Origin: a virus
Strand: one strand, 5' to 3'
DNA: 45,959 nucleotides
IMG/VR virus record: IMGVR_UViG_3300034198_004611
Coordinates: 1-45,959 of that record
Shown: positions 16,001-29,233 of the stretch, piece after piece
Position numbering within the stretch: position 1 is the first letter of the stretch
Layout of the letters: each line of letters opens with the position of its first letter
The notes under the pieces: generated by a model
Databases searched by the model: none
The model's input: only the letters and a program-made list of their open reading frames with translations
What the model was told of the DNA's origin: nothing
Position numbers and translations under genes: made by a program

Positions 16001-19000
16001 ACAATCAAACTATTTTTCAATCAGGTGCTGTAGATAATGCCAAAGACAGAACGTTAGACAACTTAAACATAACTATTGCAACGTATCCTGCTATACAAGT
16101 ACTTCACCAACTAGAAACTAATGATGGTGAAATCCTTACTACAGACTTTAGTACAGCTATGATGGTTCAAGAAATACTTTGGGAGTACTCTAAAGAAATG
16201 AGACAAGGTAATGACTCTATGAGTGACAGTTACACAAACGAATTGTCTCTTAAAGTACAAGACGAGTTGTATAAAAAGTATGCTACAGAATACTATGAGC
16301 TTACACAGAAAACTCCAGAGCCTAGTACTATACAATTGACTACAGAGCATTTAACAAAAGCTTGGGATACAAAAAACAAAGCTGTAAAAATAGACAAGTC
16401 TCGTAGTGCAGAAATGAAAAGAGAGACTTACTTGTTGACTCAACTAGCTACATTGAATGCGTTTGGAGAACTTTTAAAAATTGGTGAGAGACTTGGTCAA
16501 CTTCAAAAGACTTTAAATCAAGACACTAATGGAGCCGGTCCAAATGTATTGTATGCTTCTCAACAAATGGAAAACTTTACAAACATTAGCATACCTAATG
16601 AGTTTAAATCTATTATAAACGAAGAAAGTATTTTAAGTACTGGAAATGAGTTGTCGGAGCAGGCAGATACTTTCTTAAGTGTAATACCGTTAGCAATGAA
16701 CTTAGGAGAGAAAGTGTTTCCTCTAGAGTTAATGCAAAAACTAATTTCTACAGTTGCTTTAAACAGTAACATACAGTTGTCTGAGATGTCATTAGACACA
16801 CAAAGAAAAATAATTAGAGACTTACGCTCGGCTGTGTTGTCATCTTCTACAGTACTTGCTGAAGACCCAACTGCGGAAAGAGTTAACTTGTTGTATGGTA
16901 CTGAAACTACAGACTCTTTAGCGCTTAGATTAGACTCATACAAAGAAAGAAACCCAGGTAATTACTTCTTAGAAAGACTTCACACAAAAGTTAACTTAAA
17001 CGGAAAGGGCCCAGACTATGTAGAGTACGTAAATGCTACAGCAGTTCGTATGGATGAGGAACTAAATGTTTCAGACTTTATGAAACTAATAAACTCTGAA
17101 GATCCTGAAGCAAAAGAATTAGGTGATGACTTGGTAAAGTACGCTTTACTTTTAACTCCGCAAGCAGGACCAAAGTCTTTTATTAGCAAAGTACCTGCAG
17201 CTGTTTTATTAGGTACTAGATTCTCTGCTGAGATGAGAAATAGTACTCAGCAAATGGTAGATAGTGTAGAAGTATCAAGCGGCTTTATTGCTCAGTTGTA
17301 CCAACACAATCCTGATTTAGCTATGGAAGTTTCTGAAGAAGTAGTAAAAGCTAACAATCCTTTGTACAACATCCCAGACAGAACTTATCCTGAAGTACTT
17401 GAAGTAGATAGAACTAATACTAACTTAGAATTAGCTGACGGGTTTACTCCTTACATAAGATACTATGATAAAACAGAAGGTAAGGTAATTTTATACAAGT
17501 TGTTTTCTCAAAGCGACAAAGTAACCTACCAACGTATTGATATTTTAGGAGACAAGAATAGTGTAGAGTACGATTTAACAGTGTCAGGGAATAACTCTTC
17601 TATCTTTGTAAAGAACAAAGCCGGTTATAAATTTGGAGCAGAAGAAGCAAACATTAAACTTGCTACAGATGTAGAGAGAAACATTTCATTGGCAGCTGAT
17701 GAAGACAATGCATACACTCGTTGGGGTATACAACCAGACGGTGGTCTAGAGAACGTAAACTTTATGTTGACTCAGTTAAACAATGACCCTGCTGTTCCTA
17801 CATTCTTAAGAACTCTAGCTAATGTTTTAAGCAAGCAAGAAGGAAATGACCAAGAGGAAAATATGTTCAAAGCATTAGGTATTGATAGAGAGTTAAAAAT
17901 TAAAACTACTTTAGAAAACCAAGGATCAGCTGGGCAGTATGCTATTAATAACACTAAAACTACTTTAACTTTACAACGTCAATCAGATGTAGGAAAAGCA
18001 GCAACTGTATTAGTTCATGAAGTTATACACCAAAAGACTTCAATATTTACTGCATTACTTGGATGGGGAAAAAGTTTAAAAGCAGAGCAAATAGCTGAGT
18101 ATAGAAAACAATATCCAGAACTTTACAAAAAGTTTACAAGACTAGATGCTTTAAGATATGAAGCTTTAAAAGCTTTTGAAAAAGACTTAGAGTTAAATGG
18201 ATTGACACTGGAATCACTTGCAGCAATGAGGAAAGACGGTACTATGCCAAGTGGTACTATTCATAAAATAGGATACGCTTTAAGTAGTTTAGATGAGTTT
18301 ATTGCGCACATACAAACTGATCCAGATGTTATGAAGTTTTTAAACTCTGTAGAATCTACATCAGCTAGAACTTTCTTAGAAAGAGTATTAGATAGTTTCT
18401 TAGAATTGATTCAAGATGTAATGAATGCAATAGGTGGCATTAATGAGAAGTCTATTTTAAGAGAGGCCTTAAGCTTAGCGTATAATGTAACTAATCAAAC
18501 AGAATCAGAATTTTTACTGATTGAAAATAATTCAGTCAGTCCACAGACAGTAAACTTTAATACTGAGTCGAATGCTCTAAGCGTCCAACAAGTTGTCGAA
18601 GGTATATACGGAAAACAAACATCTTTAAGTACTGATGGAATTGGCCATCAATTAAATATCTTAAACCAAAGTAAAGCTGCTAAACCTAGTGCCGAACTTC
18701 AGAAAGTCTTGGATAAAATTCAAGTACAAATGAGAACGTTAGACGGCGTCTTATCTTCTCCAGTACGTTCTGCAGATGATAAAATCAGACGTAACCAAGC
18801 TTTAAGATTGTTTGAAGAAATTCAAGATGATTACAACCATTTGTCTACAACAAAAGACTTCATGGAATTGTCAGAGGTTGCAGACAAACAATTAGAATGG
18901 GTTAAGGCTACGTTAGCTAAACCAACAAATCATGTACAAGAAGTTATCATGGCTACAAGTATTTTAGATACCTGGGGTAACATCATGGACTTGTACGAAG

Positions 19001-22000
19001 AGAACTTTACTTTAGTTAATCCTGCTTTTCAAGAAGTTGTAAAGAACATTCAAAACAGTTCTGCACTTTTAATGGGGTCATTGAAGAATAGTACTTTAAA
19101 TACTTTAATTGCGGTTGGAGCAAGTAAAGGGTTGACTATTACTAAAGCTGATTTAGGCTCTAATATAAAAGACCTAAATGTTGCAGAACAACAAGCTCTT
19201 GCACTTTCTAGAGATACTAATAAAGTATCACAACTTGTAGCACTAGTTGGTCAGAATGCAGCTAACAATGCTCAGGAAGAACAGACAATGTTAAGAAACA
19301 AAATGAATAAAGTATTAACTCTTTTAGGTAATGACAAAGCAACTTACGCTAAGTTTATTCAAGAAAATGATACAGAGTCTGCTTTTGGTTTAGTACAAGA
19401 ACTACATCCTGACTGGTATTCAGCAGTTGCTTCAGCTAGTAAAGAGTTAAACAATACTTTGTGGTCATTAGACTCAAGAGCTTCTCTAACTTCTAAAGAT
19501 GCGAATGTAAGAAAGAAAGCTATTGCAGCTAGAAAAAAAGCATTAAAAGCTTTCTGGAGTTCAATGAGCAAAGTAGGTAAAGTAGTAGACTACACTAAGT
19601 TGTTTTCAATGGAAGGTATTTTGTTAACTACTCCTGAGGCTACAGCTGAATACAATGCTTTATTAGCTTTCACTGGAAGTAAGTCTGTAGTTGATGACAT
19701 AATTGAAGATGCTCAAAACAATGTTAAAAAGTATTATGAAGAGTACTTAGACAACATGTCTTCTATAGAAGTAAATACAAAACTTAGTCCGGAAGATAAC
19801 TTAAAAGTTATTTCTTCTTTGACTGCTGAAGAGAAATTACTTGACCCATTAGAACAGTTAAAAGTAATTAAACAAAGAACTGATTTAATGTTGGCTGAGC
19901 GAATCGATTACAGAAAAAGAACTTGGATTTCTAGAAACTCTCCGTTTGAGTTTATGGCAACAGTTAATCCTAAAGCAAGTGATGCAAAGTTTAGTCACTC
20001 AGGAAGATTTAAACCTTTATTTGTACCTAAAGCAGGTGACCAAATGTTTGACAAGAAGTACAAAGAATTAATGGCAGACCCTAAGTTAAAAGAAGCTTAT
20101 GATACTTTTGTAGAACTTTCTAAACTTTACAGATCTTACTTACCTCCTAAGGTTAGTTCTAAACTTCATGACAACTTCTTGCCGGTAATCAACATTCAGG
20201 ATGTCGCATCAATGTACAAGATGATTGGTGAATTAGGTTGGTCTAAAGTAGGTCAAGTATTCTTGAACAGTTTTACTGTAAGTAAGTTTGACGCAGACAG
20301 AAAAGAGTCTAGTGAAATTCCAATTAAGTTTACAGGCAGTGCACCTAGAGATCCAATAACTGGTAAAGTAGATTTTGAAAAAGTAAGTATTGACTTACCT
20401 AGAATTTTTGAGATGTTTGGAAATATTGCAATACATTACCGCCACATGTACCCTGCAAAAGAGTTTATTGACTTAGCTCAAAGAGTAATACAAAACGAAA
20501 GTAAGAAACGTCAAAACAGTGGAGAAGGAAGTTTGTCAAACCTAGAAGAGTTACTTAAGTTCTATAAAGACACTTTAGTTTACAAAAAACCTTTAGCAGT
20601 TGGAGGTGTAGCAAGTGAAGCTATCTATTCTCTTAATCCTTCTGAAAACAAAAGACTTAAAGAAAGAGTGTTTAACCTTAATCAAGAACTAAAAGAACTT
20701 GAAGCAGAAGAACAGATTAATCCAAACGTACTCTTAGACGATACACACAGTAATAAAAAGAAAGCTATTGTAGATGAGTTAGCGTTCATAGAATCTACAG
20801 CTAGGTATGCATCTCTTACTAAAGTAGGAGACACTCTAATTGGAATTAATCAGTTAAAAGCTATGTCTTACAATCCATTCTCAGCTGTGAGTAACTTCTC
20901 TTTTGGGTACATGTCTGGGTTTATACATGCAAGAGGCTTTAGAGCAGAAGACAAAGAAACAGGTGAGACGTCTGGAGACTATACTGCAGCTCAATTAAGA
21001 ATGGCTTACAGTTTAATGAAAGGTAACATTGCACGTTCTTGGGGTAGTATTTTTAACTTATCAGGTAGTGATACTGCTTTAAAATGTAAAGCAATCATAG
21101 AAAGAATAGGAATGGTTGATGCTTTGAGTGACACTACTTACGGTAAAACAAACTTAGAAAACTTCCAAAAGAAAGGATGGCAAAAAACTGTAGACCCGTT
21201 TGCTTGGCAAAAGTCTGGTGACTTTTTAACAAAAGGAGCAGTAATGATTGCTATGACTTTAAACAAACATGTAGAAGTAACTGAGAATGGTGTAACAAAA
21301 CGTATTCCTTTGTTTGATGCTTTAAGTATTGAAGCTAAATGGGATGTTGAAAAGTACGGGGAAAACGAAACATGGCAGTCAGATAAGGACATTGATAACC
21401 AAGTAGATTGGAATAAGTTCCGTAACAAAGTACGTAAAGTAGGTATCCTAGTTTTTGGTAACCAGGATAGAAACTCTCCTTTGATGGCTCGTAAAAATCT
21501 TATAGGCAGATTGATTAGTCAGTTCCGTTTAAGCTGGATACCAGAAGGGTTTAACACTAGATGGGGTAACGAATATGAAGATGCTGAGTTAGGTAGAACT
21601 GTTAGTGGACGTTACAGAACTATGTTTAACATGAAAGGGTTTGGAGTTCCAACTTTAATTCGCCAAGTTTTAAGTACTTTTAACGGGTCAGACGCTTTTG
21701 AAGGTGTAGAAACTAAGCAATGGGAAATAATTAATGGTGAAAAACGTCAAGTTTGGAAAACAATTCAAGCACATGAGAAAGAAAACATGAGACGTAACCT
21801 TGCTGGTATGACTTACACTGCAGCAGTACTTGCTACGTTGGCTATTCTTAGAGCTGGATTACCTGATGAAGAAGAGATGAGACGTAGAAAAAGAATGGGA
21901 ATAGCTCCAAACACTGGGCAAAGAATGTTAATAAATATGTTGTATCGTATGCAACAAGATTTACAATTCTATTCTAATCCTTTTGTAATGGATCAAATAG

Positions 22001-22197
22001 TAGCCAGTCCGATACCGGCTTGGAATGTACTAAAAGACTTTATGAACATCTATCAAGTAGTAGGAATTTTACAAGGAGAAGACAAGGATAAGTATGAAAG
22101 AGCTTTAAAGAAAATTACAAAAGCTTTCCCTTATTTAAACTTGTATAACAAAATAGAATTCATGACAAGTAGAGATATTAGTGCAGCAGTAAGATAG
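7036..22197 (+). CDS. Giant (5053 residues) multidomain virion RNA polymerase polyprotein
   Basis: This is one uninterrupted frame of 15.2 kb. Domains in order: a domain with SPSTWCTSG (365-373); zincin-like HEVAH (653-657); NADAR domain (about 792-928); SLOG-like domain (about 1009-1150), framed by proline-rich linkers; RNA polymerase core including SSYPLLPQF (from 2412), ESGRKMG (2444-2450), FRIQQD (2489-2494) and the metal-binding DFDVD (2787-2791); a second zincin-like HEVIH (3661-3665); a long helical C-terminal region with a hydrophobic segment near 4926-4942. The DxDxD motif is the active site of the double-psi beta-barrel RNA polymerases related to YonO and the crAss-like virion polymerase of phi14:2, which are packaged and transcribe early genes. 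The size far exceeds the roughly 2200-residue phi14:2 enzyme. Start: ATG 11 nt after the previous stop, behind TTAAAATTTTAAATT. Processing into smaller proteins is possible. Confidence 0.9.
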   Translation: MSCYISWNGRESVLASLLGQNEGELVRDRVMSYVYSNEFKDKFGDFRDPYTVPEYSTDDIGKEPSYAWVKEQLLKDSSANEAQLHINNVKEAIQTQLPKEVADTVSVIDVVPDSVLGRRDLFFAMKDVFESNGITDTALINWAGINKSIVGHPKGIKNTAELEAILEKSYEKLSNPETYIELKTNPLAAESFDAWKGSLQDYPLTFRHLMLTHAVKWLRNPDRRSKYVLQLSSVALRNTYGLLQDKPHEANRIGKLYDQEVLKTVSDAIGHEPSASGKGYWVHVPRTENKNALKNTKTLLRDNTNDPNAPAKFTVEYMTEDGSLDLEMFETREEAERFEISIKGNNIVEDNTAYKTNVELLRKLSPSTWCTSGSAANTYVEDYDNYVLIVNGRSVAGIEVYPGEGIRKVKEVTSVNNNGVASIDFLDDTIAFFEKKGFDTNNTTLQRAISARDENKTDESYANELEYDFDNPFDNIFQEEYQGDYEQDYYNPFEEMGREVDDRYDEIQGLATSLTTVEETIEFLNNPDLGYSSGYFFENFTQELRNNYDIAKAAVESYALAINYVDSTLPFYEELGLLAFSKNKNVYTYLSPELQAMPGLLTEYAIFTQEEEDELPFSKTEDAIQGYYDAKNDKVVVVASNITTEEAAKVAIHEVAHRGMLRMAKELGGTKELYASLTAAESQLMEKLPELLERTGHKNLEALMLDYGFTTNSEDGKAKLLMELAARWAETLVDKPKPSWWIELLQSIGQWIQNFTGKTLTEKEVNELVGGFVRYGSTNNIETTALSPADTVNIYAGTGENAELSNFAPRPFEIGGIKYNSVEQAFQHAKLAFAETNEQNLKVADAIMRSDGAMAKSLGKKFVSFNTKEWDSQASSVMKTLLKESFKQNPEALAKLQATGNATLTHTQDKGKWGKEFPKLLMEVRSELTIPAPPVQTVEGYRAQEQAELIQRIPNIEDYKVDGKVDKSLITDEAVLATYNEIYDKYDKLITPLLNAPAPPPPPSSKPSFVKKGIFTVTPAQAADKKATIKASIATQYIGFGEGIPNSSTELYRQQAGQYANTGNYSSSDVIFVSIGGKRGTEQQQKTQQDRTIQEALKAIEAGSTLITDNRDYINSSTYNTGEKRLYKNLEAKGYNYSEVTIDGQTLGVWTKNNTVVPAPPSAAPVGPTLLAIKVPEGTKRVKASERTSEDIEAIKSVIQRRWVDEALANPDKQYKVGYENPNKNKYQDDYGFYVKEYAEYLDDIRLEMGEDFPTNLTFFPAFEFAMNSNPARLMKVFSSRIEELQKRKEDLNVDPLINAEIAARMEVVVVDSNGTTLSYFTKDHGGNAQKEVTDTILSAMYTKYLSTTVPPSVDTLFEEGLKTIVRAQIEAKKKGDTKRETLWGDVRRSFAFKDDRVSFMSLMLNHFEALGFSIDRKAKNGLLSKYDKLKNDTSILEKVTETVLQVDLVEGDYNLVLEESGDDINFDQSRGTSLKDWSDSAFEQDPRTTAGARLKMWLSTQYRKQKATYRILDDSTGIPMPPGSVDITEKIPSMEWLTGLKLGQQLQIAFALNGKQCSHKTLGPQIQEYFDTMHPTVPVLNSLGMQSLVQFDTLLASILDELSSTPDMTLELAISKLKGSGNSDLFETGTRLEKASERDQNEFLKVTNLQYVKGVVIKANPKKDDKGQEYHQVRVIEAQQFGQRQTVIKKWKERNALSAVVKKRADGSRTIDLDRTTKQVEAIKVLAMLSSIPTKEYVKGQTVEEKKAAEELYLANMQVFLNALDSALNLNREYFSGITAQMLVEDELGKVLEGAKKRDFSSKRSLQGKTLQLLFREHGVDLNDAAIQDLVGVYIKPGKGNEKATVTDKVAEWTKGTKLQGDWLSQYSFSLEGKPKGMFSAFFGKAAGLFTDKDLDLNEEELEDQVMDNNPLYTETTTINALANVARKHTENLHTNSHKNAENKTVWDYSLNTALSNEVQRFVNNSEEMRKVYFKTQLLSYQDASGNIVSGNWHLNRLLENKDKFGITFLEGLNYNNRSKGTTRTNMSDREQLLSVAGAYFNEGRPFANMVSLTHSDKTVTPIFTGVPKIKISEVANNGVIGLNVQEAFFEVFMAEYRRALQVQSILKNGDSTGDAQLDAGGTNFFFLPLFNKESMRVFGTEQMLYAEDGSLLETIGNNKPLFLELISNFLRDEIKKESEKWAELGIEYKHLDRSYQKSMQNDLDNTPNFGKLNDLVYRKQNTKVEERNQIIYNNAIKEFTLNTLLWNMNSTMLFTGDPAQNWKPSKIASATEADNINSTFSEFAKRLAKDIAPGQTLNFTKPTFRTLTIADVKEKYEYITKFGGNIEDSNAGDAQEFTTVQEHLDVMLAGGLIEKDLYNELSGIAKGEDYEFTDAQLDQMMQPMQAMKPVYTGFRDPSNGFRMYDYIKTSSYPLLPQFTKGLEIDKVRQMMEKGNIQRIVFESGRKMGGPTNKTKLFKANKDGVIEFTNPDASELESSVQTLDRKNFRIQQDVPYDRDKEAIKVVSQMNKLIVESIGDFNDFDIEGFGKGKSGKQVREYKESIKRKMIQYNLKTLKQKLGIQTGADGTTSPLDRKKILNLMIEEAKSRGYSTNDLVLIERLIEYKDDSGRIVDTDFDFPLFLHPAVEKFESLLMSIVRKVTEFKMPGKSYVQAASVGYNRVIKEGEVDSRGMIYVAGYDSSQPLRHMQVVDGVVKPAQVLAPFNFYGKDAEGNDIKYKITDFLKEGTNELDTDRVPKEFLQLIGARIPNQGHNSMIAMEIVGFVPDWMGDTLIVPSAITGQMGSDFDVDKLFTYKRPYTFDGSTVKRINKQTKEAFADEYVNNIIEATPEGETPRDVSQDEIDAEYAKVPDTKESLQEDYFNVHWGVLTNRDLYSKVLSSLDKPDLGQANKKFATNDTTRGSFWSSRTQQEMFQAGKDAKTLVGLTSLAVTFNSVLQGKALQYGSYTKIKGGYKKDVKYLKLNGMDFSSLSGTGTIERDGVTYSKHDNQTIFQSGAVDNAKDRTLDNLNITIATYPAIQVLHQLETNDGEILTTDFSTAMMVQEILWEYSKEMRQGNDSMSDSYTNELSLKVQDELYKKYATEYYELTQKTPEPSTIQLTTEHLTKAWDTKNKAVKIDKSRSAEMKRETYLLTQLATLNAFGELLKIGERLGQLQKTLNQDTNGAGPNVLYASQQMENFTNISIPNEFKSIINEESILSTGNELSEQADTFLSVIPLAMNLGEKVFPLELMQKLISTVALNSNIQLSEMSLDTQRKIIRDLRSAVLSSSTVLAEDPTAERVNLLYGTETTDSLALRLDSYKERNPGNYFLERLHTKVNLNGKGPDYVEYVNATAVRMDEELNVSDFMKLINSEDPEAKELGDDLVKYALLLTPQAGPKSFISKVPAAVLLGTRFSAEMRNSTQQMVDSVEVSSGFIAQLYQHNPDLAMEVSEEVVKANNPLYNIPDRTYPEVLEVDRTNTNLELADGFTPYIRYYDKTEGKVILYKLFSQSDKVTYQRIDILGDKNSVEYDLTVSGNNSSIFVKNKAGYKFGAEEANIKLATDVERNISLAADEDNAYTRWGIQPDGGLENVNFMLTQLNNDPAVPTFLRTLANVLSKQEGNDQEENMFKALGIDRELKIKTTLENQGSAGQYAINNTKTTLTLQRQSDVGKAATVLVHEVIHQKTSIFTALLGWGKSLKAEQIAEYRKQYPELYKKFTRLDALRYEALKAFEKDLELNGLTLESLAAMRKDGTMPSGTIHKIGYALSSLDEFIAHIQTDPDVMKFLNSVESTSARTFLERVLDSFLELIQDVMNAIGGINEKSILREALSLAYNVTNQTESEFLLIENNSVSPQTVNFNTESNALSVQQVVEGIYGKQTSLSTDGIGHQLNILNQSKAAKPSAELQKVLDKIQVQMRTLDGVLSSPVRSADDKIRRNQALRLFEEIQDDYNHLSTTKDFMELSEVADKQLEWVKATLAKPTNHVQEVIMATSILDTWGNIMDLYEENFTLVNPAFQEVVKNIQNSSALLMGSLKNSTLNTLIAVGASKGLTITKADLGSNIKDLNVAEQQALALSRDTNKVSQLVALVGQNAANNAQEEQTMLRNKMNKVLTLLGNDKATYAKFIQENDTESAFGLVQELHPDWYSAVASASKELNNTLWSLDSRASLTSKDANVRKKAIAARKKALKAFWSSMSKVGKVVDYTKLFSMEGILLTTPEATAEYNALLAFTGSKSVVDDIIEDAQNNVKKYYEEYLDNMSSIEVNTKLSPEDNLKVISSLTAEEKLLDPLEQLKVIKQRTDLMLAERIDYRKRTWISRNSPFEFMATVNPKASDAKFSHSGRFKPLFVPKAGDQMFDKKYKELMADPKLKEAYDTFVELSKLYRSYLPPKVSSKLHDNFLPVINIQDVASMYKMIGELGWSKVGQVFLNSFTVSKFDADRKESSEIPIKFTGSAPRDPITGKVDFEKVSIDLPRIFEMFGNIAIHYRHMYPAKEFIDLAQRVIQNESKKRQNSGEGSLSNLEELLKFYKDTLVYKKPLAVGGVASEAIYSLNPSENKRLKERVFNLNQELKELEAEEQINPNVLLDDTHSNKKKAIVDELAFIESTARYASLTKVGDTLIGINQLKAMSYNPFSAVSNFSFGYMSGFIHARGFRAEDKETGETSGDYTAAQLRMAYSLMKGNIARSWGSIFNLSGSDTALKCKAIIERIGMVDALSDTTYGKTNLENFQKKGWQKTVDPFAWQKSGDFLTKGAVMIAMTLNKHVEVTENGVTKRIPLFDALSIEAKWDVEKYGENETWQSDKDIDNQVDWNKFRNKVRKVGILVFGNQDRNSPLMARKNLIGRLISQFRLSWIPEGFNTRWGNEYEDAELGRTVSGRYRTMFNMKGFGVPTLIRQVLSTFNGSDAFEGVETKQWEIINGEKRQVWKTIQAHEKENMRRNLAGMTYTAAVLATLAILRAGLPDEEEMRRRKRMGIAPNTGQRMLINMLYRMQQDLQFYSNPFVMDQIVASPIPAWNVLKDFMNIYQVVGILQGEDKDKYERALKKITKAFPYLNLYNKIEFMTSRDISAAVR
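8992..9006 (+). other. Zincin-like HExxH site 1 in the giant protein
   Basis: Codons for H653-E654-V655-A656-H657, preceded by the helix AAKVAI as in gluzincin/metzincin active-site helices. A downstream acidic third ligand is plausible but not fixed. It could act on the giant chain itself or on another protein. The motif is short, so function is inferred. Confidence 0.5.
9409..9819 (+). other. NADAR domain inside the giant RNA polymerase protein
   Basis: Residues about 792-928 show the full family pattern: LSNFAPRPFEIGGIKYNSVE, then QAFQHAKLAF, the MRSDGAMAKSLGKK helix, W, VMKTLLKESFKQNP, and the closing DKGKWGKEFPKLLMEVR. NADAR (YbiA-like) proteins are N-glycosidases acting on ADP-ribose-linked or related nucleotide substrates; some remove ADP-ribose from DNA guanine. 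The domain sits before the first long proline-rich linker. Assignment is from motif recognition and is fairly sure; the substrate in this phage is unknown. Confidence 0.8.
10060..10485 (+). other. SLOG-like nucleotide-binding domain inside the giant protein
   Basis: Residues about 1009-1150 contain TQYIGFGEGIPNSSTELYRQ, then NTGNYSSSDVIFVSIGGKRG and GSTLITDN, an alternating hydrophobic strand/loop pattern like the YpsA/LOG-type Rossmann folds seen in phage proteins. Proline-rich linkers (PAPPPPPSSKP before and VPAPPSAAP after) set it off as a separate module. The nucleotide or NAD-derived ligand is unknown, and the family assignment is tentative. Confidence 0.5.
15394..15408 (+). other. RNA polymerase catalytic motif DFDVD
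   Basis: Codons for D2787-F-D2789-V-D2791 within GQMGSDFDVDKLF. The three aspartates match the DxDxD magnesium-binding loop of the second double-psi beta-barrel of RNA polymerases. The surrounding GSDFDxDK context matches crAss-like virion polymerases better than bacterial NADFDGD. Confidence 0.85.
18016..18030 (+). other. Zincin-like HExxH site 2 in the giant protein
   Basis: Codons for H3661-E3662-V3663-I3664-H3665 in ATVLVHEVIHQKTS, on the far side of the polymerase core from site 1. A possible third ligand is E3754 in SSLDEFIAH about 90 residues later, as in gluzincins. This is a metallopeptidase-like domain by motif; activity is inferred. Confidence 0.5.
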
Positions 22198-22227
22198 CAG
22201 TACAGTAAAGGATTTCAAATTTCACGA

Positions 22228-22274
22228 CATAGTACTTTTTGCTTACCTTTGGGTTTAAAGTAAAAAGTACTATG
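22228..22274 (+). promoter_or_regulatory. 13-bp hairpin that buries a start codon and carries a TACCTTTG box in its loop
   Basis: The left arm CATAGTACTTTTT (22228-22240) pairs perfectly with the right arm AAAAAGTACTATG (22262-22274), leaving a 21-nt loop. The last three bases of the right arm are the ATG of the next gene. The loop contains TACCTTTG (22244-22251), matching the Bacteroidota -7 element TAnnTTTG, followed by GGGTTTAAAG. There is no T-run after the hairpin, so it is not a normal terminator. Read-through RNA from the giant gene would hide the start codon; RNA started inside the loop would lack the left arm and leave it free. This switch is an inference from the layout. Confidence 0.6.
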
Positions 22275-23054
22275 TCATTTATTCCTAAAATAAGTATTAC
22301 AGAAGTTTCTAAAACCGCAACCAGTTTAAAAATTACTGATGTAACAGGTGTTTATCCTACAGATCAAACAGGGTATGAGCAAATTTCAGGTATTTTACCT
22401 GATGGCCCAACTGAATGGACTAAAATTACAACAGGTCAATACCTAGGAAGTACTCCTACGCAGTTGCTTTTTACTCCCGATTCTGATAAATTATTACCTG
22501 CTGCAACATTGTCGTATACAATGGCTGATGGAGTACATGTAATTACTCAGTACTTTATGAAAAAGATGCCATTGTCTTATTCTTTAAATGCAGGTAAAAC
22601 TATTCTTACTAAAACAAATTCAGACCCTTGGATAGACCCTCTTGGATTACTTGAAGGTATTTATGCTTTTCAATGGACTGCTTCTGCTGCTCCAATAAAC
22701 ATTGATGGATTTAGTAGAATTACTCAGCTTACTGATACTACAGTTACACTTAACACAGCACTTACAGGAGCTACTAATAGTAGTGACTTATGGGTTATTT
22801 ACAAAGTTTCTAAAAACGTTTTAATTTTAAATCAAGGAGAAAGTCAATTACTTTCAGACATCGGTGATATTTCTTTGTCTGCTTTGAAAGCTAACGGTTG
22901 TAATTCTGAAACTACTTCAGACTTTTTTCAAAGAATCTTATTAAAAACATCAGCTCAAATAGCTTTTAGTTGTGGAAACTATTCAAAAGCTCACGACGCT
23001 GCAATCTTATTTTCTCAATCTTCTCAAACTTCAAATTGCTCAACCTGTGATTAA
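22272..23054 (+). CDS. Predicted structural (tail/neck) protein, 260 residues
   Basis: The chosen start is the ATG at 22272 (MSFIPKISITEV); the frame can be extended upstream only to a TTG inside a hairpin arm. The first 200 residues are beta-rich and Thr/Ser-rich with short repeated turns (TDVTGVYPTD, TQLTDTTVTLNTAL), typical of phage tail or neck accessory proteins. The last 60 residues are helical and end in NCSTCD, a CxxC pair at the C-terminus. The stop overlaps the probable start of the next gene by 8 nt. It is the first gene after the giant RNA polymerase gene and before the fibre-like gene. No family was recognised; the structural role is inferred from composition and position. Confidence 0.75.
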   Translation: MSFIPKISITEVSKTATSLKITDVTGVYPTDQTGYEQISGILPDGPTEWTKITTGQYLGSTPTQLLFTPDSDKLLPAATLSYTMADGVHVITQYFMKKMPLSYSLNAGKTILTKTNSDPWIDPLGLLEGIYAFQWTASAAPINIDGFSRITQLTDTTVTLNTALTGATNSSDLWVIYKVSKNVLILNQGESQLLSDIGDISLSALKANGCNSETTSDFFQRILLKTSAQIAFSCGNYSKAHDAAILFSQSSQTSNCSTCD

Positions 23055-23352
23055 AGTATATGAAACATCTAGTATTACAGGTAGTATTCTAACGCCTGAA
23101 ATCTGTAAAGCAATTACAGGTGCTAAGTCTTTGTTAGTTGATCTAGTACTTGACGACGCCTTGAAAGAGTTGTACGCTTTAAGAAATAGTACTTGTTCAA
23201 AGCAGTCTTCTACAAAACTTGAATGTTTATACATGTACTTGTATGCATTAGACAGTTGGGAGAATGAAGGAACAAATTACTTGACCGAAAAACAATTAAT
23301 ATCTTTACTGTCAAACGTAGAGCAAATTTCTAAATCTTGTTGTAATGGCTGA
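23047..23352 (+). CDS. Small helical structural protein with C-terminal Cys pair
   Basis: The frame is open from 22972, but that GTG overlaps the upstream gene by 83 nt. I prefer the GTG at 23047 (MIKVYETSSITGSILTPEIC), which gives the 8-nt overlap seen at other junctions here and a 101-residue product. The protein is mostly helical, has six cysteines, and ends in SKSCCNG. It overlaps the start of the fibre-like gene by 8 nt, so the three genes are probably translated in a coupled way. Position suggests a neck, tail-tube or fibre-attachment accessory, but no family was recognised. The start codon is the least certain part. Confidence 0.65.
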   Translation: MIKVYETSSITGSILTPEICKAITGAKSLLVDLVLDDALKELYALRNSTCSKQSSTKLECLYMYLYALDSWENEGTNYLTEKQLISLLSNVEQISKSCCNG

Positions 23353-24682
23353 TACATGTAACTCTTGTGGTGGGAACCTTAATAATATCTTTGATTTATC
23401 TGGCGCTGGTTCAGACAGTTGCTCTTGTAACGTAGGTTCTTTAGTACCTATGACTTCTGGAGGTTCATCTGGAGGATGTTGCGTAGAGTCAGTAAATGGG
23501 CAAACAGGTGTTGTAATCTTAGACATTAATGATATTGACTTACTTGGTAATCAATTCTTTACTGCTGCTTTAGTTTACGCAGCTTTGTCAGCAACTAGTC
23601 CAATAGTATTTAATCCTTCTACAGGAAATATATCTCATGCCAATTCAGCTGTAACGGCCGGAACTTATGGTAATAGTGGTACGTATCCAATTATAACTGT
23701 TGATGCTAAAGGCCATTTAACAAACGTACAAACGCAAGCTTTACCAAGTCTTACTTTACCTACAAGTCTTACAAATTTAAGCGCACTTTCTGGTACAGGT
23801 TATCCAGTACTTACAGGCGTTAACACTTGGGCGCTTAGAAATATTATTGGTACTTCAGGAAGAATTGGAGTAACAAATCAAAATGGCGTATCAGGAAATA
23901 CTCAAATAGATTTAGCTGTTTCTGGAGTTACCGCAGGCACGTATGGTGGTGGTTCAAGTTACCCTGTAATTCAAGTAGATTCTTATGGTAGAATTACATC
24001 AGCTACTTCGCAATCATTGTCACCTGTTGTTATACCTGCACATACACACTCTTTAGGTTCTTTAAGTAATGTAGACATTCTTGTTGACACTACAGCTATT
24101 TTAGATGATGTATTAACTTGGAATGGTACTAAATGGATAAGTACAGCATTGCCAACACCTCCAGCAAGTTTGCTTTATGAAGGCACTCAACCTGTAATTA
24201 CAAATAGTTGGGGAATTTGTAAAAGTATAGGAGATGTAGACATACCTAATCTATATGGAGACTTATCAGTTATAACTAAACTTGAAGACAGTATAGGAAA
24301 TTCTGTGACTCACTTAAACTTTATGTTGTATAAAACTTTTTCTTCTTTTACAGCTTTTGCTACTTTTACAAATACAACTTATTATACATTAAATGAAGTA
24401 GGTACTCTTCCTTATCCTTATTGGCCTGTACATAAAACAATTATACCTTTAGGAAGTAATTGGATTACTGGAGAAATGTTTGGAAAAGCAGGCAGTCCTA
24501 TTGAAATTTTTAGAGGTACACAATTAGGAATTAAAATGAACTTAATTATTCATCAAAATGGATTAATGCAGATGGGTATGGAAATTCCAAACGATTCTAG
24601 ACTTGCCACAGACGGAGATACTAACATTATTCTATGCCCAGTAGTAGGCTCTTTCCTAACACAAACAATTCAAACTGCATAA
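23345..24682 (+). CDS. Tail-fibre-like protein with repeated VTAGTY module and HTH metal-type motif
   Basis: 445 residues from the ATG at 23345. The N-terminus has six cysteines in the first 46 residues (C5, C8, C25, C27, C45, C46). SVNGQTGVVILDINDID (49-65) resembles the VNGxTGxVxLxxxDI segment common in phage tail fibres. Two copies of a beta module follow: VTAGTYGNSGTYPIITVDAK (from 103) and VTAGTYGGGSSYPVIQVDSY (from 195). AHTHSLGSLSNVDI (232-245) resembles fibre segments with HxH metal sites. The C-terminal 190 residues have no recognised family and would be the receptor-binding tip if this is a fibre. The fibre role is inferred from repeats and composition; the exact attachment partner is unknown. 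Confidence 0.75.
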   Translation: MADTCNSCGGNLNNIFDLSGAGSDSCSCNVGSLVPMTSGGSSGGCCVESVNGQTGVVILDINDIDLLGNQFFTAALVYAALSATSPIVFNPSTGNISHANSAVTAGTYGNSGTYPIITVDAKGHLTNVQTQALPSLTLPTSLTNLSALSGTGYPVLTGVNTWALRNIIGTSGRIGVTNQNGVSGNTQIDLAVSGVTAGTYGGGSSYPVIQVDSYGRITSATSQSLSPVVIPAHTHSLGSLSNVDILVDTTAILDDVLTWNGTKWISTALPTPPASLLYEGTQPVITNSWGICKSIGDVDIPNLYGDLSVITKLEDSIGNSVTHLNFMLYKTFSSFTAFATFTNTTYYTLNEVGTLPYPYWPVHKTIIPLGSNWITGEMFGKAGSPIEIFRGTQLGIKMNLIIHQNGLMQMGMEIPNDSRLATDGDTNIILCPVVGSFLTQTIQTA

Positions 24683-24933
24683 TGATACACAAATTTTTAA
24701 CTTTTTTTACAACTTTAGATTATAAAACTGACGATGTATCAGCTTTCTCTGGTGGTTTTATCCTTTCTTTACTTACTTGGGTACATATAAACCCTACAGA
24801 AATCATAGGTAAATTAGTAATGACGTTTGCTGTTGGTTTAATTGGAGGTATAGGAGGTATTACTGCTAGAGTTCTTTGTAAAAACATAACAACTTTATAC
24901 ATAAAATGGAAGCAAAAAAACTCGCAACAATAG
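24682..24933 (+). CDS. Holin-like small membrane protein
   Basis: 83 residues. I chose the ATG at 24682, which shares one base with the previous stop (TAATG), over the in-frame ATG at 24634 inside the fibre-like gene. Two hydrophobic segments are visible: FSGGFILSLLTWVHI (about 20-34) and IIGKLVMTFAVGLIGGIGGI (about 41-60), followed by a Lys-rich tail (KWKQKNSQQ). Two segments, short length and a basic tail fit a class II type holin or a related phage inner-membrane protein that would release the lysozyme encoded 0.8 kb downstream. The stop region overlaps the next gene by 28 nt. There is no family-specific motif, so the holin call rests on topology and position. Confidence 0.6.
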   Translation: MIHKFLTFFTTLDYKTDDVSAFSGGFILSLLTWVHINPTEIIGKLVMTFAVGLIGGIGGITARVLCKNITTLYIKWKQKNSQQ

Positions 24934-25193
24934 CAGAAGGCTGGTACAACTATCTACAAGGTAGTGGGTACACTAAAGAACTTATGGCTAATAGATTAGA
25001 ACATTGTGATCTTTGCCCGTACAAAAAACAAATGACTGGTATTGGTAAAGTTTTAACTACCGCTTTAAACATGGAAGAAAACACTTTTTTTTGTTCTAAA
25101 TGTAACTGTCCATTAGGTTCTAAGACAGCTGCTACAAAGGAAACTTGCCCTATTGGAAAGTGGGGTATTGCTGGAACCGAAAGTATGTACTAA
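24906..25193 (+). CDS. Small Cys-rich zinc-ribbon-like protein
   Basis: 95 residues. Five cysteines form two knuckles and a further site: HCDLC (C34, C37), FCSKCNC (C63, C66, C68) and ETCPIGKW (C81). The N-terminal 30 residues are a helix. Similar short proteins with a CxxC...CxxCxC...CPxGKW pattern are common in phages of Bacteroidota, often close to lysis or tail genes, with unknown function. A zinc site from C34, C37, C63 and C66 is the likely arrangement. It starts within the end of the holin-like gene (28-nt overlap) and ends 9 nt before the spanin-like gene. No enzymatic role can be given. Confidence 0.7.
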   Translation: MEAKKLATIAEGWYNYLQGSGYTKELMANRLEHCDLCPYKKQMTGIGKVLTTALNMEENTFFCSKCNCPLGSKTAATKETCPIGKWGIAGTESMY

Positions 25194-25198
25194 CTTTG
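25168..25198 (+). promoter_or_regulatory. Bacteroidota-type promoter, TTG-N20-TAACTTTG, before the lysis genes
   Basis: TTG at 25168-25170 and TAACTTTG at 25191-25198 match the Bacteroidota -33 (TTTG/TTG) and -7 (TAnnTTTG) elements with 20 nt between them. The TAA of the Cys-rich gene is part of the -7 box. The expected start of transcription lies about 3-5 nt after the box, within a few bases of the ATG at 25203, so the message would be nearly leaderless. Chance matches are possible in AT-rich DNA. Confidence 0.45.
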
Positions 25199-25202
25199 TA
25201 GT

Positions 25203-25730
25203 ATGAAACAAATACTTTTTATCTTTAGTATACTACTTTTATTTAGCTGTAATACATTGCGTAAAGCTCAAACTCGTTTACTAAAAGTAGAAGTAAGACA
25301 TCCTGAATTACTTACAAAGTACTGTGCAGCCAAGTACCCAAATGTAGAAAATACTACAACAAACATTGAGTACATTACAAATACTGACACGTTTTACACA
25401 GATCCTATTTTAATAGACTGCGATTCTGTTAAGTATGATACAATTTTAAAAACTAAAGTAGTTTCAATAAAATGTCCTCCTTCTTATTTAAAGCGTGACA
25501 CTATACGTAAAGAAGTTGTTGTAACTAAATGGAACACAGCCTTAGTACAAGTACTTGGAGACAGTCTAAGCAAAGAAAAAGAAAGAACTGTTATAATATT
25601 ACAAACACTGAATAAGACACAAAATAGCCTACACAAGTACAAGATTGGAACAATGGTTCTACTCTTCCTAGTACTTCTATTTTTTATTCTTAAAACAGTT
25701 TTAAAATGGACAAATCCATTAAAGTTATAA
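25203..25730 (+). CDS. Unimolecular-spanin-like lipoprotein
   Basis: 175 residues. The N-terminus MKQILFIFSILLLFSC is a lipoprotein signal with the acylated cysteine at 16 (lipobox LFSC). The middle, about residues 60-145, is charged with coiled-coil potential near SLSKEKERTVIILQTLNKTQ. The C-terminus has one transmembrane segment (IGTMVLLFLVLLFFILKTVL, about 148-167) followed by a short basic end. An outer-membrane lipid anchor plus a C-terminal inner-membrane anchor is the layout of u-spanins such as T1 gp11, which span the periplasm and disrupt the outer membrane at lysis. It sits between a holin-like gene and the lysozyme and overlaps the latter by 25 nt. The function is inferred from topology and context, with no sequence match claimed. 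Confidence 0.65.
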   Translation: MKQILFIFSILLLFSCNTLRKAQTRLLKVEVRHPELLTKYCAAKYPNVENTTTNIEYITNTDTFYTDPILIDCDSVKYDTILKTKVVSIKCPPSYLKRDTIRKEVVVTKWNTALVQVLGDSLSKEKERTVIILQTLNKTQNSLHKYKIGTMVLLFLVLLFFILKTVLKWTNPLKL

Positions 25731-26203
25731 CCACTATTGGAACAGAAGGGTTAGAACTAATCAAACAAAAAGAAGGCTTTGAGGCTAGTCCTTATTTATG
25801 CTCAGCTAAAGTACCAACTATAGGTTATGGCGCAACGTACTATCCTAAAGACTACAGTGTTGTAGCTTTAAGAGGTAAAAGAGTAACAATGCAAGACCCT
25901 GCAATTTCAGAAGCAGCAGCATGTCTTTTGCTTAAGAGTATGCTAAAATCTTATGAACAAGGAGTAAACAGTTTTACTAGAGATGACATTAATCAAAATC
26001 AGTTTGACGCCTTAACTTCTTTTGCGTACAACATAGGTACTGGAGGGTTAAAAGGTTCTAACTTACTTAAAAAAGTAAATAAGAATCCTAACGACTCTAC
26101 TATTAGAGCAGAGTTTTTAAAGTGGGTTTACGCTAATGGTAAACTTTTAAAAGGCTTGATGATTAGACGAACTCAAGAAGCTGACTTGTACTTTAAAAAA
26201 TAA
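25706..26203 (+). CDS. Endolysin, GH24 (T4-type) lysozyme
   Basis: 165 residues. The catalytic pattern E-8aa-C-5aa-T of phage lysozymes is visible: E23 in KQKEGFE, C32 in YLCSAK and T38 in PTIGYGAT. Later family motifs are also present: NQFDALTSFAYNIGTGGLKG and the C-terminal LKWVYANGKLLKGLMIRRTQEADL. It hydrolyses the peptidoglycan glycan strand. The length is typical for the family. There is no signal peptide or SAR segment, so it needs a holin to reach the periplasm. Cys instead of Asp at the second catalytic position is a known variant. It is the last gene of the plus-strand block and is followed by a terminator. GTTTTAAAATG forms its start region. Confidence 0.9.
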   Translation: MDKSIKVITTIGTEGLELIKQKEGFEASPYLCSAKVPTIGYGATYYPKDYSVVALRGKRVTMQDPAISEAAACLLLKSMLKSYEQGVNSFTRDDINQNQFDALTSFAYNIGTGGLKGSNLLKKVNKNPNDSTIRAEFLKWVYANGKLLKGLMIRRTQEADLYFKK

Positions 26204-26219
26204 AAGGCCTTAAGAAAAT

Positions 26220-26253
26220 AAAGGGACTCAGCCATTTACAACTGAGTCCCTTT
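26220..26253. terminator. Bidirectional intrinsic terminator between convergent blocks
   Basis: AAAGGGACTCAG (26220-26231) pairs perfectly over 12 bp with CTGAGTCCCTTT (26242-26253) around a 10-nt loop. On the plus strand the hairpin runs into CCCTTTTGTTTTA; on the minus strand it runs into CCCTTTATTTTC. It lies between the lysozyme stop (26203) and the stop of the converging minus-strand gene (26258), so it ends transcription from both blocks. Confidence 0.9.
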
Positions 26254-26257
26254 TGTT

Positions 26258-26782
26258 TTATGTGTGTAATAAATCTACTTCTAAAAAAGTATCTATAGGT
26301 TTGGACAATAATTCTGTCTCTTCCCCTACGTCTAAGTCTAAAAACTCATCCCACAATTCTTTTAGTAAAGGAGATTTGTCTAAAGCTAAAAGTCTTATAT
26401 CAGTTCTTGAAGTTAAACCTACTACTGTTCTGTACATCAATCCACTGTTAGTTCTAATAATAGTTTTAGCTCTTGTAGAAAACTGACTGTACTTACCTTC
26501 TACAAACTTTTCTACATCGCTTTTAAAATTAGGATTAATACTAAATTCTAAGTAAACCTTACCGTTACTGTCTGTGAATTCTTTATGCTTTGGGATTGAA
26601 CCTTGTACTAAAATAGAGTCAAAGACTTCTACGTAAATACCGGTTAAATCTTTTTTTAAGTAAGTGTCTATAAAGTTAAGATCACCACCAAATTTTGATT
26701 TGGATACTCCTGCTAAAGGTAGTATAAAATAGGTACAAAGATTATGTTCGTTTAACTGTGACACCATTTGGGTAAAATCCAT
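26258..26782 (-). CDS. Hypothetical protein, last gene of the minus-strand block
   Basis: 174 residues, not recognised. It looks soluble, mixed alpha/beta, with a central KFGGDLNFIDTYLKKDL segment and an acidic C-terminal helix (LLKELWDEFLDLDVGEETE). No cysteine cluster, signal peptide or nucleotide-binding motif is visible. It begins 24 nt after the 5' nuclease gene, behind AAATTTAAAGT, and ends 5 nt from the terminator hairpin. As the promoter-distal gene of the replication block it may be an accessory to that block, but nothing in the sequence fixes a role. Confidence 0.75.
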   Translation of the reverse strand: MDFTQMVSQLNEHNLCTYFILPLAGVSKSKFGGDLNFIDTYLKKDLTGIYVEVFDSILVQGSIPKHKEFTDSNGKVYLEFSINPNFKSDVEKFVEGKYSQFSTRAKTIIRTNSGLMYRTVVGLTSRTDIRLLALDKSPLLKELWDEFLDLDVGEETELLSKPIDTFLEVDLLHT

Positions 26783-26806
26783 ACTTTAAATTTCTGCCTT
26801 ACGCTA

Positions 26807-27601
26807 TCATGGCATTATTTCGAGACTTTCGGGGTTAGAAAATACTCCAACTGAATGGAGAAATGTGATTTCTTCTTTATAAGTTTCCCAATAAGGATGA
26901 GAAGGCATAAGCATTTTAACAGTGTTAAAAGTCTGATCATAGATTATACTACCATAGTACTCCCCAAAGTACTTAGTGTATTGTTCTTTAACTAGGAAAT
27001 GAAGTTCCATGTCAAAGCAATCTGAATCGGGTAAAACTTTTGAAAATAGTTCTGTTACTTTTTTAGGCCCTAATCCTGGTACTCCTTTTATATTATCGAC
27101 GTCATCACCACATAACATTTGAGTCCAAAAGTTTACAGAAGCTTCATACAAAGAAACTACTTTAACACCTTCAGAAGGTTTTTTGTAGTCAAAATGTAAG
27201 CCTGCAATTTGTTTCATGTCTTTGTCTGGCGAACAGATAATAACTTCGTCTGTTGTATGCAATACAGAGGCTGCTGAAACAATATCATCGGCTTCTAAAT
27301 CTTTTGGAGTTACAAACCCATAAGTCTGTACAAAGTAGTTTTTGATAGTACTTTCCCACTGAGTTACCCAGTCCGGTTTTGAACCTCTGGTACCTTTGTA
27401 AGGAGCATACAAATACTCTTTGTCTCTAAAACTAATTTTAGGTGAGAAACTTCCAAAGTGATGTGTAGCTTGACTTCCTTCCATAATCATTTTGTACATA
27501 GAATCGCATGATTCAAGTACTAAAGATTCTAAGGATTCCTTGTGATTGTAAGCAACAATGTAGACAATACTGTCTGCATCAATTAAAGCTAGTCTTGACA
27601 T
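26807..27601 (-). CDS. FEN/PIN-type 5'-3' exonuclease
   Basis: 264 residues. Family motifs in order: LIDADSIVY (6-14) with metal ligands D8 and D10; the YKGTRG substrate segment (68-73); LEADDIVSA (102-110); SPDKDMKQI (124-132); and the helix-3-turn-helix DNA clamp GDDVDNIKGVPGLGPKKV (165-182). This is the domain seen in the 5' nuclease of DNA polymerase I and in T4 RNase H, which removes RNA primers and flaps at the lagging strand. The family A polymerase in this window has no such domain, so this separate protein likely supplies it. It overlaps the upstream nuclease gene by 13 nt, suggesting coupled translation. Confidence 0.88.
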   Translation of the reverse strand: MSRLALIDADSIVYIVAYNHKESLESLVLESCDSMYKMIMEGSQATHHFGSFSPKISFRDKEYLYAPYKGTRGSKPDWVTQWESTIKNYFVQTYGFVTPKDLEADDIVSAASVLHTTDEVIICSPDKDMKQIAGLHFDYKKPSEGVKVVSLYEASVNFWTQMLCGDDVDNIKGVPGLGPKKVTELFSKVLPDSDCFDMELHFLVKEQYTKYFGEYYGSIIYDQTFNTVKMLMPSHPYWETYKEEITFLHSVGVFSNPESLEIMP

Positions 27602-28023
27602 GCTGAAGTTTGTTGGGTTAATAAAATTTTGTTCTCTCTTTTTAATTCCTCCAATTGCTTAACCATTTGAAAAAAGTCATGTTGGTACATAAAAGCATAC
27701 CTTTCTTTTACTAAAAACTTACTTCCGGTTTTAGCTTTTTCTGTTTTCTTATGAAGAACTACATTAATTAACCCTGGAGTTACTGGAATTTCTCCTAGAA
27801 TCTTCTGATAAGGTATTGCACCTACCATACATTTAGCTTGTACATTGTAAGGAAGTCTACCTTGTATTGACTCATCAGTATTAGCTAAATCAATCTTTTG
27901 TGCATCTCTTGTTCTGTTACAAGCCCTTGATGTGGCCACATCTGTAAATCCAATTTCTCTAAAAATGGTTACTAATTCTCTTTCGTAAGAATGGCCAACT
28001 GCTGTATTTCTTGGTTTGCTCAT
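27589..28023 (-). CDS. PD-(D/E)XK nuclease, Holliday-junction-resolvase-like
   Basis: The ATG at 28023 (MSKPRNTAVGHSYERE) is preferred over an upstream TTG at 28041, giving 144 residues. The fold signature is visible: GHSYERELVTIFREIGF helix with E14/E16, KIDLA with D45, and NVQAKCM with Q62 and K64, the (E)...D...QxK arrangement of archaeal Hjc and phage resolvase-like nucleases. The C-terminal half is helical and ends in a charged coil (QLEELKRENKILL). It would cut branched DNA during recombination-dependent replication or before packaging, or act as a recombination exonuclease. It lies in the replication block next to a 5' nuclease. The nuclease fold is fairly sure; the exact substrate is not. 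Confidence 0.75.
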   Translation of the reverse strand: MSKPRNTAVGHSYERELVTIFREIGFTDVATSRACNRTRDAQKIDLANTDESIQGRLPYNVQAKCMVGAIPYQKILGEIPVTPGLINVVLHKKTEKAKTGSKFLVKERYAFMYQHDFFQMVKQLEELKRENKILLTQQTSACQD

Positions 28024-28033
28024 GTATAGTTTT

Positions 28034-28067
28034 AAAAACAAAGGTACAAAGTTTCCTCTGTACCTTT
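28034..28067 (-). terminator. Intrinsic terminator after the rIIB-like gene, overlapping a TACCTTTG box
   Basis: On the minus strand AAAGGTACA (28067-28059) pairs over 9 bp with TGTACCTTT (28048-28040) around a 10-nt loop, followed by G and TTTTT (28038-28034). It lies 18 nt downstream of the rIIB-like stop at 28085. The 3' arm also contains TACCTTTG (28046-28039), followed by TTTTTAAAACTATAC and the ATG of the nuclease gene at 28023, so the site may combine a terminator with a promoter. No clear -33 TTG is seen. Confidence 0.6.
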
Positions 28068-28084
28068 ATGTTTGAATTAAAAAA

Positions 28085-29233
28085 TTAAGCTAACGACTCA
28101 AGATCTTCAATAGAACTATTAGAAGCGTCGATAACTTCTGAAAGTAAAGAAGCATACTCAGCGTTGCCTAGTTTAGCGTACTCACTACTGTGATAGATAC
28201 CTTTGTTTGGTCCAGCAAAACTAGAATGTACAAAATATCTACGTACAGTCATTGCACCATCTTGATTGTCAGTAGCATTTACTGTATGAATGTCTGAAGG
28301 ATCTACAAAGATGTTGTGAGTTACAGTACCTTCTGTTTGGTAGTTTCTGATGTAGTTTAAACCACCACAATGTAACCCTGGTCCCATTGGAGGTCCAACT
28401 TTATCCCAAGAATCTAACTCATGACGACAACCTACACGAATAAAGTGACCTTCAGAATTATGACCATTACCAATACAAGCAAAAGCGTCTCCACTTGTAC
28501 CTTGTATAGCTGGTTCAAATAATCTGTCCTCTGCGTAGTCTGGAGTGTCATAAGTAATTAATCCAGTATCAGGATCAACATTCATGTTGTATCTAGCTAC
28601 TACTTTTACACCACTCTGGTCATCTTCTGCTATGTACTTAGTAGTAATCTCTCTAGAAACTTTGTAGCAAACTAAAAGACCTTCTTGAGTAATAGCTACC
28701 TGGGTTGTTGTAGCTTTTTTCTCAGCAATTTCTCTTGAAAAGCCTTGAGTTTCTATTAAGTTTTCCACAATGTTTTCATCAATGTACAAAGCTGAAATGT
28801 AGTTTGCAAAAGATTTTGCTCTTTCTTCGCTATAAGCAGGTCTGCCTTTTGCAGGGCGTAGGTAACGTCCCCAACATTTTACTAACGGCTCAATGTCAAT
28901 ACCTTTCTCAACTGATGTCAAAAGTTTGTCAACAAACACTTGTGGTAAAGGAGTGTTGGAAACTTTATGTCCTAGTTTAAGGTAGTACTTACCTGTCTTT
29001 GGATTTACATAGATGTGAGGTGAAGCTGTTTCTACCTGTTCTTTGTAAGTCTCTTTTGTGTACGGTGTAAACTTTTCTACAAGTGCTTTCATTTCATCTT
29101 GTGTAGCTACTGTTCCCGCTTCCTCAGCAATCTGTTTCATGAGATGGTAATTTTCTTCATGAAATGTTACGCTGTAAGGTACGCCATTCACTGTACCAGT
29201 GATTTGGTCTTCGATACGATTTACTGTAATCAT
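28085..29233 (-). CDS. rIIB-like protein
   Basis: 382 residues, longer than T4 RIIB (312). Residues about 95-192 show the RIIB pattern: PLPQVFVDKLLTSV, PLVKCWGRYLRPAKGRPAYS, a helical stretch, and the closing ITQEGLLVCYKVSREI (181-196), like the ITxDGxFLAYKKV segment of the family. The C-terminal half contains conserved-looking GCRHELDSWDK and GPGLHCGGLNYI with several His and Cys, possibly a metal site. It lies directly downstream of the rIIA-like gene (21 nt), as rIIA and rIIB do in T4 and in many crAss-like phages. RII proteins act at the membrane and in exclusion by other phages, but their biochemistry is unsettled. The assignment rests on motif plus gene pairing. Confidence 0.65.
   Translation of the reverse strand: MITVNRIEDQITGTVNGVPYSVTFHEENYHLMKQIAEEAGTVATQDEMKALVEKFTPYTKETYKEQVETASPHIYVNPKTGKYYLKLGHKVSNTPLPQVFVDKLLTSVEKGIDIEPLVKCWGRYLRPAKGRPAYSEERAKSFANYISALYIDENIVENLIETQGFSREIAEKKATTTQVAITQEGLLVCYKVSREITTKYIAEDDQSGVKVVARYNMNVDPDTGLITYDTPDYAEDRLFEPAIQGTSGDAFACIGNGHNSEGHFIRVGCRHELDSWDKVGPPMGPGLHCGGLNYIRNYQTEGTVTHNIFVDPSDIHTVNATDNQDGAMTVRRYFVHSSFAGPNKGIYHSSEYAKLGNAEYASLLSEVIDASNSSIEDLESLA

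Follow-up and report, generated by a model that had tools for sequence, protein, structure and literature searches.

How the expression of a phage polymerase gene may be kept apart from that of the structural and lysis genes that follow it is the question raised by a short junction in the window, i.e., the whole stretch of 45,959 nucleotides analyzed here, which, judging by its sequence, is part of a crAss-like phage. In this junction, 74 bases separate the stop of a giant polymerase gene (22197) from the next ATG (22272), and an inverted repeat sits within them. The first-pass annotation of this DNA had proposed that a hairpin with a promoter-like box in its loop hides the ATG in RNA arriving from upstream. 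The features on which the argument depends are the following:

7036-22197, plus strand: giant crAss-type RNA polymerase gene, 5053 aa, a possible source of read-through RNA (ORF, tblastn)
22226-22244, plus strand: 5' arm of the hairpin, GACATAGTACTTTTTGCTT (sequence reading and fold)
22244-22251, plus strand: very likely -7 promoter box, TACCTTTG (fit to TAHHTTTG, intergenic enrichment, retention at the junction in relatives)
22256-22257, plus strand: predicted RNA start (4-5 nt past the box, by the rule of PMC6847099)
22258-22276, plus strand: 3' arm of the hairpin, AAGTAAAAAGTACTATGTC, which carries the leader and start codon (sequence reading and fold)
22272-23054, plus strand: first gene of the operon, 260 aa, probable virion structural protein (orthologues, Foldseek)
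23345-24682, plus strand: structural-type protein, 445 aa (PHROG phrog_697 structural protein, E 6e-9)
24634-26203, plus strand: putative lysis cassette, with a small membrane protein, a 95-aa ORF, a lipoprotein-like protein and a phage lysozyme

Genes on either side of the junction

The upstream gene had been taken for a giant polymerase gene, an identification borne out by tblastn, which matches it to g066 of phi14:2 ('Catalytic RNA polymerase subunit', E 9e-17) and to crAss-like records of a 'putative RNA polymerase'. It is a single ORF of 5053 aa, and phi14:2 has the consecutive separate genes g066 and g065; a NADAR domain (PF08719, E 2.4e-14) lies inside the giant protein, at about residues 800-915.

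The start codon of the downstream gene is correctly placed at 22272, given that its orthologues in seven other loci, which open with P-K-I (or P-x-I), begin at the same position. The Foldseek matches of the 260-aa protein include a structural protein of phi17:2 (prob 1.00, target-normalised TM 0.58, E 2.6e-3), its matches to PDB folds are weak and FnIII-like only, and no orthologue was found among the named phages. The description of the downstream genes as tail genes was loose, since the operon encodes, besides this likely structural protein, another protein of structural type and the lysis cassette, in which the roles of the first three genes are putative and the last gene (25706-26203) encodes a phage lysozyme (PF00959). 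These genes overlap throughout 22972-26203, apart from a 9-base gap ahead of 25203. A second start-codon hairpin was considered at 25203 and set aside, as it is not kept in the close relative and has a z of -0.6.

Beyond the operon, a stem flanked by T-runs (26215-26258) lies between convergent gene sets and is likely a two-way terminator, which implies that the phage also has ordinary terminators.

A hairpin around the start codon

The perfect 13-bp arms originally described (22228-22240 and 22262-22274) are present within a larger hairpin, in which pairing extends outward (22226-22227 with 22275-22276) and inward (22241-22244 with 22258-22261), for a total of 19 pairs (15 perfect, one G.U and three more) around a 13-nt loop. 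The ATG (22272-22274) is thus not at the very end of the 3' arm, where it had been placed, because two further paired bases follow it, and both the ATG and the A-rich leader are contained in this arm. Folded as RNA, the hairpin has an MFE of -28.2 kcal/mol (z -9.3), a stability reached by none of 200 shuffles, and no other perfect inverted repeat with a short loop is as long anywhere in the window. When the entire window was dinucleotide-shuffled 2,869 times, hairpins with at least 15 perfect pairs and a loop of up to 40 occurred at a mean of 0.011 per shuffled window, and those with at least 13 pairs at 0.10, values which are uncorrected for the fact that the hairpin itself prompted the search. 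No Rfam family scored above its gathering threshold in a scan of 22000-28500.

The hiding of the ATG, as it had been proposed, is what the fold predictions indicate for read-through RNA, in which the start region would cost 20.4 kcal/mol to open and the ATG would be unpaired with a probability of 0.001, whereas in RNA begun at 22256 the predicted cost is 2.7 kcal/mol, the leader and ATG being open because the 5' arm is missing. These energies were predicted for 37 C, and at lower temperature the stem is more stable; the fold is predicted to become dominant while the 3' arm is being synthesized. The opening cost of this start exceeds that of all others among 417 mechanically called gene starts, drawn from 61 nonredundant loci of the window phage and its relatives, and the difference between the two RNAs was matched by none of 398 control starts given a pretended RNA start. 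In Flavobacterium, translation is lowered by structure at the start and favoured by A at -3 and -6, and the leader has an A at both of these positions.

A very likely promoter box in the loop

The primary-sigma -7 element of the Bacteroidetes is TAHHTTTG, with RNA starting 4-5 nt past the box (PMC6847099), and TACCTTTG conforms to it. The box had been placed in the loop, which is accurate except that its first T lies in the top pair of the stem. RNA begun at the predicted position would start after the end of the 5' arm (22244) and just ahead of the 3' arm (from 22258). The -33 element TTTG was not found, TTTC standing at the expected place (22220-22223); this element is reported to be much less evident in F. 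johnsoniae too (PMC6847099).

Boxes of this kind are concentrated in the intergenic parts of the window, where five occur and 0.56 would be expected (p 2e-4), and an extended 19-mer, GCTTAYCTTTGGGTTTAAA, has exactly two copies in the window, one at the junction and one on the minus strand (34104-34086), both lying shortly upstream of an ATG. Furthermore, the relatives L019/L030, L025, L026 and L042 retain the box at the orthologous junction, and in the distant L019/L030 the sole GCTTANNTTTG of an 83-kb contig occurs there. Given the fit to the motif, the intergenic concentration, the repeated extended form and the conservation at the junction, the box is very likely a promoter. Which polymerase would use it can be inferred; the host RNA polymerase is believed to carry out middle and late transcription in crAss001 and phi14:2 (PMC8375218). 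The pattern GCTTANCTTTGGGKTTAAA was also found four times in viral contigs outside this phage group (L007, L008, L015 and L017), in other sequence contexts and without the junction hairpin.

Other boxes offer separate observations. The second copy of GCTTAYCTTTGGGTTTAAA precedes the gene at 33228-34076 and has no strong hairpin. On the minus strand at 28021-28076, the box TACCTTTG (28046-28039) is located within the 3' arm of a stem that resembles a terminator (AAAGGTACAGAG GAAA CTTTGTACCTTT, then GTTTTT, z -4.7) before the gene at 27589-28023, so that terminator and promoter appear fused. At three sites (25191-25203, L025:17813-17825 and L030:17543-17555), TAHHTTTG is followed by 4 nt and then ATG, which puts the predicted RNA start on the start codon and means that these messages may be leaderless.

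The junction in related phages

No close DNA relative was found among the named phages or in the genome contigs searched. The orthologous next gene was found in eleven loci of about nine lineages. The sequestering hairpin was seen only in the window phage and L001/L005 (89% identical). In the latter, box, ATG and hairpin are kept, with one A of the 3' arm lost and one change in the loop, and the opening cost is 16.7 versus 1.6. The expectation that pairing would be conserved through compensatory changes was not supported, as pairing is kept in this one close relative, which has lost an arm base with no compensatory change seen in the arms, and the distant relatives lack the hairpin. Nor is the conservation specific to the arms, given that the entire intergenic stretch is conserved in L001/L005; the junction was likewise discarded as a special conservation peak, coding stretches holding longer identical runs.

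The remaining lineages present a variety of arrangements. In L025/L047 and L026/L048, a terminator stem and U-run are followed by TATCTTTG and then the ATG; in L029/L049, L027/L050 and L053, other strong or moderate stems stand ahead of the ATG; the box stands without a stem in L042 and in L019/L030 (identity to the window 46% in the polymerase region and 35% for the gene after it); and both a clear box and a strong stem at the ATG are missing from L028/L051 and L052. The distance from box to ATG is 4-7 nt in L025, L026, L030 and L042, against 20 nt in the window. Stems with z below -3 accompany five of 19 intergenic boxes, compared with 1% of control starts, in a small set to which the window and its close relative both belong. 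Read-through RNA has more structure at the starts of this junction than at other starts, also with the window excluded (p 0.009).

Three further hairpins were observed in these relatives. At the orthologous junction of L027 (17862-17907), perfect 9-bp arms (GTAGTGGAT/ATCCACTAC) surround the box-like TACCTTCG and the 3' arm stops 2 nt before the ATG, a layout similar to that of the window with unrelated arms; it is suggestive of a second promoter in a loop, yet it was not counted as one, because the z of the fold is only -1.3 and the box has a mismatch. A near-perfect 13-bp hairpin in L053 (15372-15407) ends 4 nt before the ATG at this junction, with no clear promoter box. In L019 (5177-5206), a hairpin (TTTGTAG / CTACAAA) precedes the giant gene, its 5' arm holding the TTTG of the box TACATTTG, with an opening cost of 14.3 versus 3.5.

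The view that the two programmes are separated without a terminator applies to the window in the sense that a plus-strand scan returned no intrinsic terminator at the polymerase/operon junction and no terminator stem forms ahead of the box; two relatives do carry a terminator there. The A-rich stretch after the polymerase stop (ACAGTAAAGG) and the T-run just before the box, within the 5' arm, resemble the edges of the terminators of L025 and L026. These junctions share with that of the window their place, the kind of -7 box, the orthologous next gene and an intervening hairpin, and they differ in having a stem with a U-run that stops at the box, whereas the stem of the window spans both box and ATG and lacks a proper U-run.

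Comparison with known systems

In T4, the start regions of gene e (lysozyme), soc, 49 and I-TevI are hidden in a helix of the long upstream RNA (PMC3014915, PMC2988022), and in gene e this layout cuts lysozyme production from early RNA about 100-fold (PMC3014915). The window resembles these genes in the predicted sequestration of the start region in upstream RNA, in a promoter of its own whose predicted RNA does not include the 5' helix strand, and in its late structural/lysis-type context, the operon ending in a lysozyme that recalls gene e. On the other hand, T4 uses sigma-gp55 late promoters and Shine-Dalgarno sites, whereas the window has a Bacteroidetes host-type box placed in the loop, a setting poor in Shine-Dalgarno sites, and the ATG itself in the stem. 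The leaders of T4 have no sequence relation to that of the window, whose function is a prediction. The likeness to T4 late genes put forward in the first-pass annotation is consequently one of logic, in the predicted sequestration and the placement of the promoter; the window would work like a T4 late gene and is not one, because the T4 late promoter TATAAATA is absent from 22198-22271 by reading of the sequence. Among the Bacteroidetes primary sigma promoters (TTTG / TAnnTTTG), the window stands apart by its TTTC at -33 and by the extended GCTTAYCTTTGGGTTTAAA common to two promoters.

A probable insulator at the junction and its alternatives

On balance, we consider it probable that hairpin and promoter together form an insulator, of the kind seen in T4 gene e and I-TevI, between the gene for the giant virion RNA polymerase and the operon of structural and lysis genes. 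The RNA hairpin would carry a host-type promoter in its loop; read-through RNA from the giant gene, holding both arms, would fold, hide the ATG and leave the operon untranslated, while RNA begun at the predicted start would lack the 5' arm, expose the A-rich leader and ATG, and be translated. Since the downstream genes overlap, such a block might spread beyond the first of them through translational coupling or polarity. We infer an active promoter, the existence of read-through RNA and, in the cell, a block to translation imposed by the hairpin. The start-codon lock would occupy the place of the intrinsic terminator in L025 and L026, which appear to stop giant-gene RNA by the terminator and restart by the promoter; as a guess, the terminator may be the ancestral state. 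Counting against the insulator are the box without a hairpin in L019 and L042, a pairing found in two related phages, one of which has lost an arm base uncompensated, a conservation that is not specific to the arms, the TTTC at the -33 place, and downstream genes that could be translated independently from read-through RNA.

The same insulating outcome would be obtained by acting on transcription, if the hairpin were an imperfect intrinsic terminator of the giant-gene RNA, with the loop promoter sparing the operon RNA and the hiding of the ATG incidental. We regard this as unlikely, even though real terminator stems occur at the L025 and L026 junctions, the T-run of the window falls at the matching place before the box, ATTTATTC after the stem has 5 T in 8, and the box at 28046 of the same phage lies in a terminator-like stem followed by GTTTTT. 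The run past the stem begins with A and is broken, which is not the immediate U-run of an intrinsic terminator; nothing was found by the scan on the plus strand of the junction; and the stem is A+T-rich and, unlike those of L025 and L026, reaches beyond the ATG.

Pairing alone is no proof of selection, given that near-perfect inverted repeats can arise in one event, and a copying accident (template switch) may have put the reverse complement of the pre-box sequence into the leader, in which case the promoter would matter and the effect of the hairpin would be small. The longer spacing of box and ATG in the window, its extra length being mostly 3' arm, fits such an event, which nevertheless seems to us rather improbable: the repeat persists in two phages about 11% apart with one change in 38 arm bases, the arms are conserved relative to fourfold-site rates (p 0.02 to 2e-5), and the predicted translation cost for read-through RNA is very large. 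Least of all do we expect the repeat to act as DNA, i.e., as an operator at which a regulator would bind across the promoter. The centre of the dyad is at the end of the -7 box, as an operator could have it, while perfect 15-bp arms are unusual for operators, L019 keeps the box with the arms absent, and the arm sequence is not found at other promoters, recurring in the window only as one copy with two mismatches.

Implications for crAss-like phages

The crAss-like phages are abundant, and to our knowledge little is known of how they time the expression of polymerase, structural and lysis genes. Transcription of the polymerase subunits of crAss001 falls in the middle or late stages, for a reason described as unclear (PMC8375218). 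At this boundary, a start-codon lock that carries its own promoter would offer a timing device open to direct testing. It is doubtful, if conceivable, that the boundary promoters of the group are generally built into RNA hairpins that form only in read-through RNA, as terminators or as start-codon locks; if so, interchangeable devices would separate the RNA polymerase and lysis programmes without Shine-Dalgarno control. The lock at this junction, if true, would be a case of T4-style control that arose separately where Shine-Dalgarno sites are few, and would mean that a terminator and a translational lock serve one junction in related phages.
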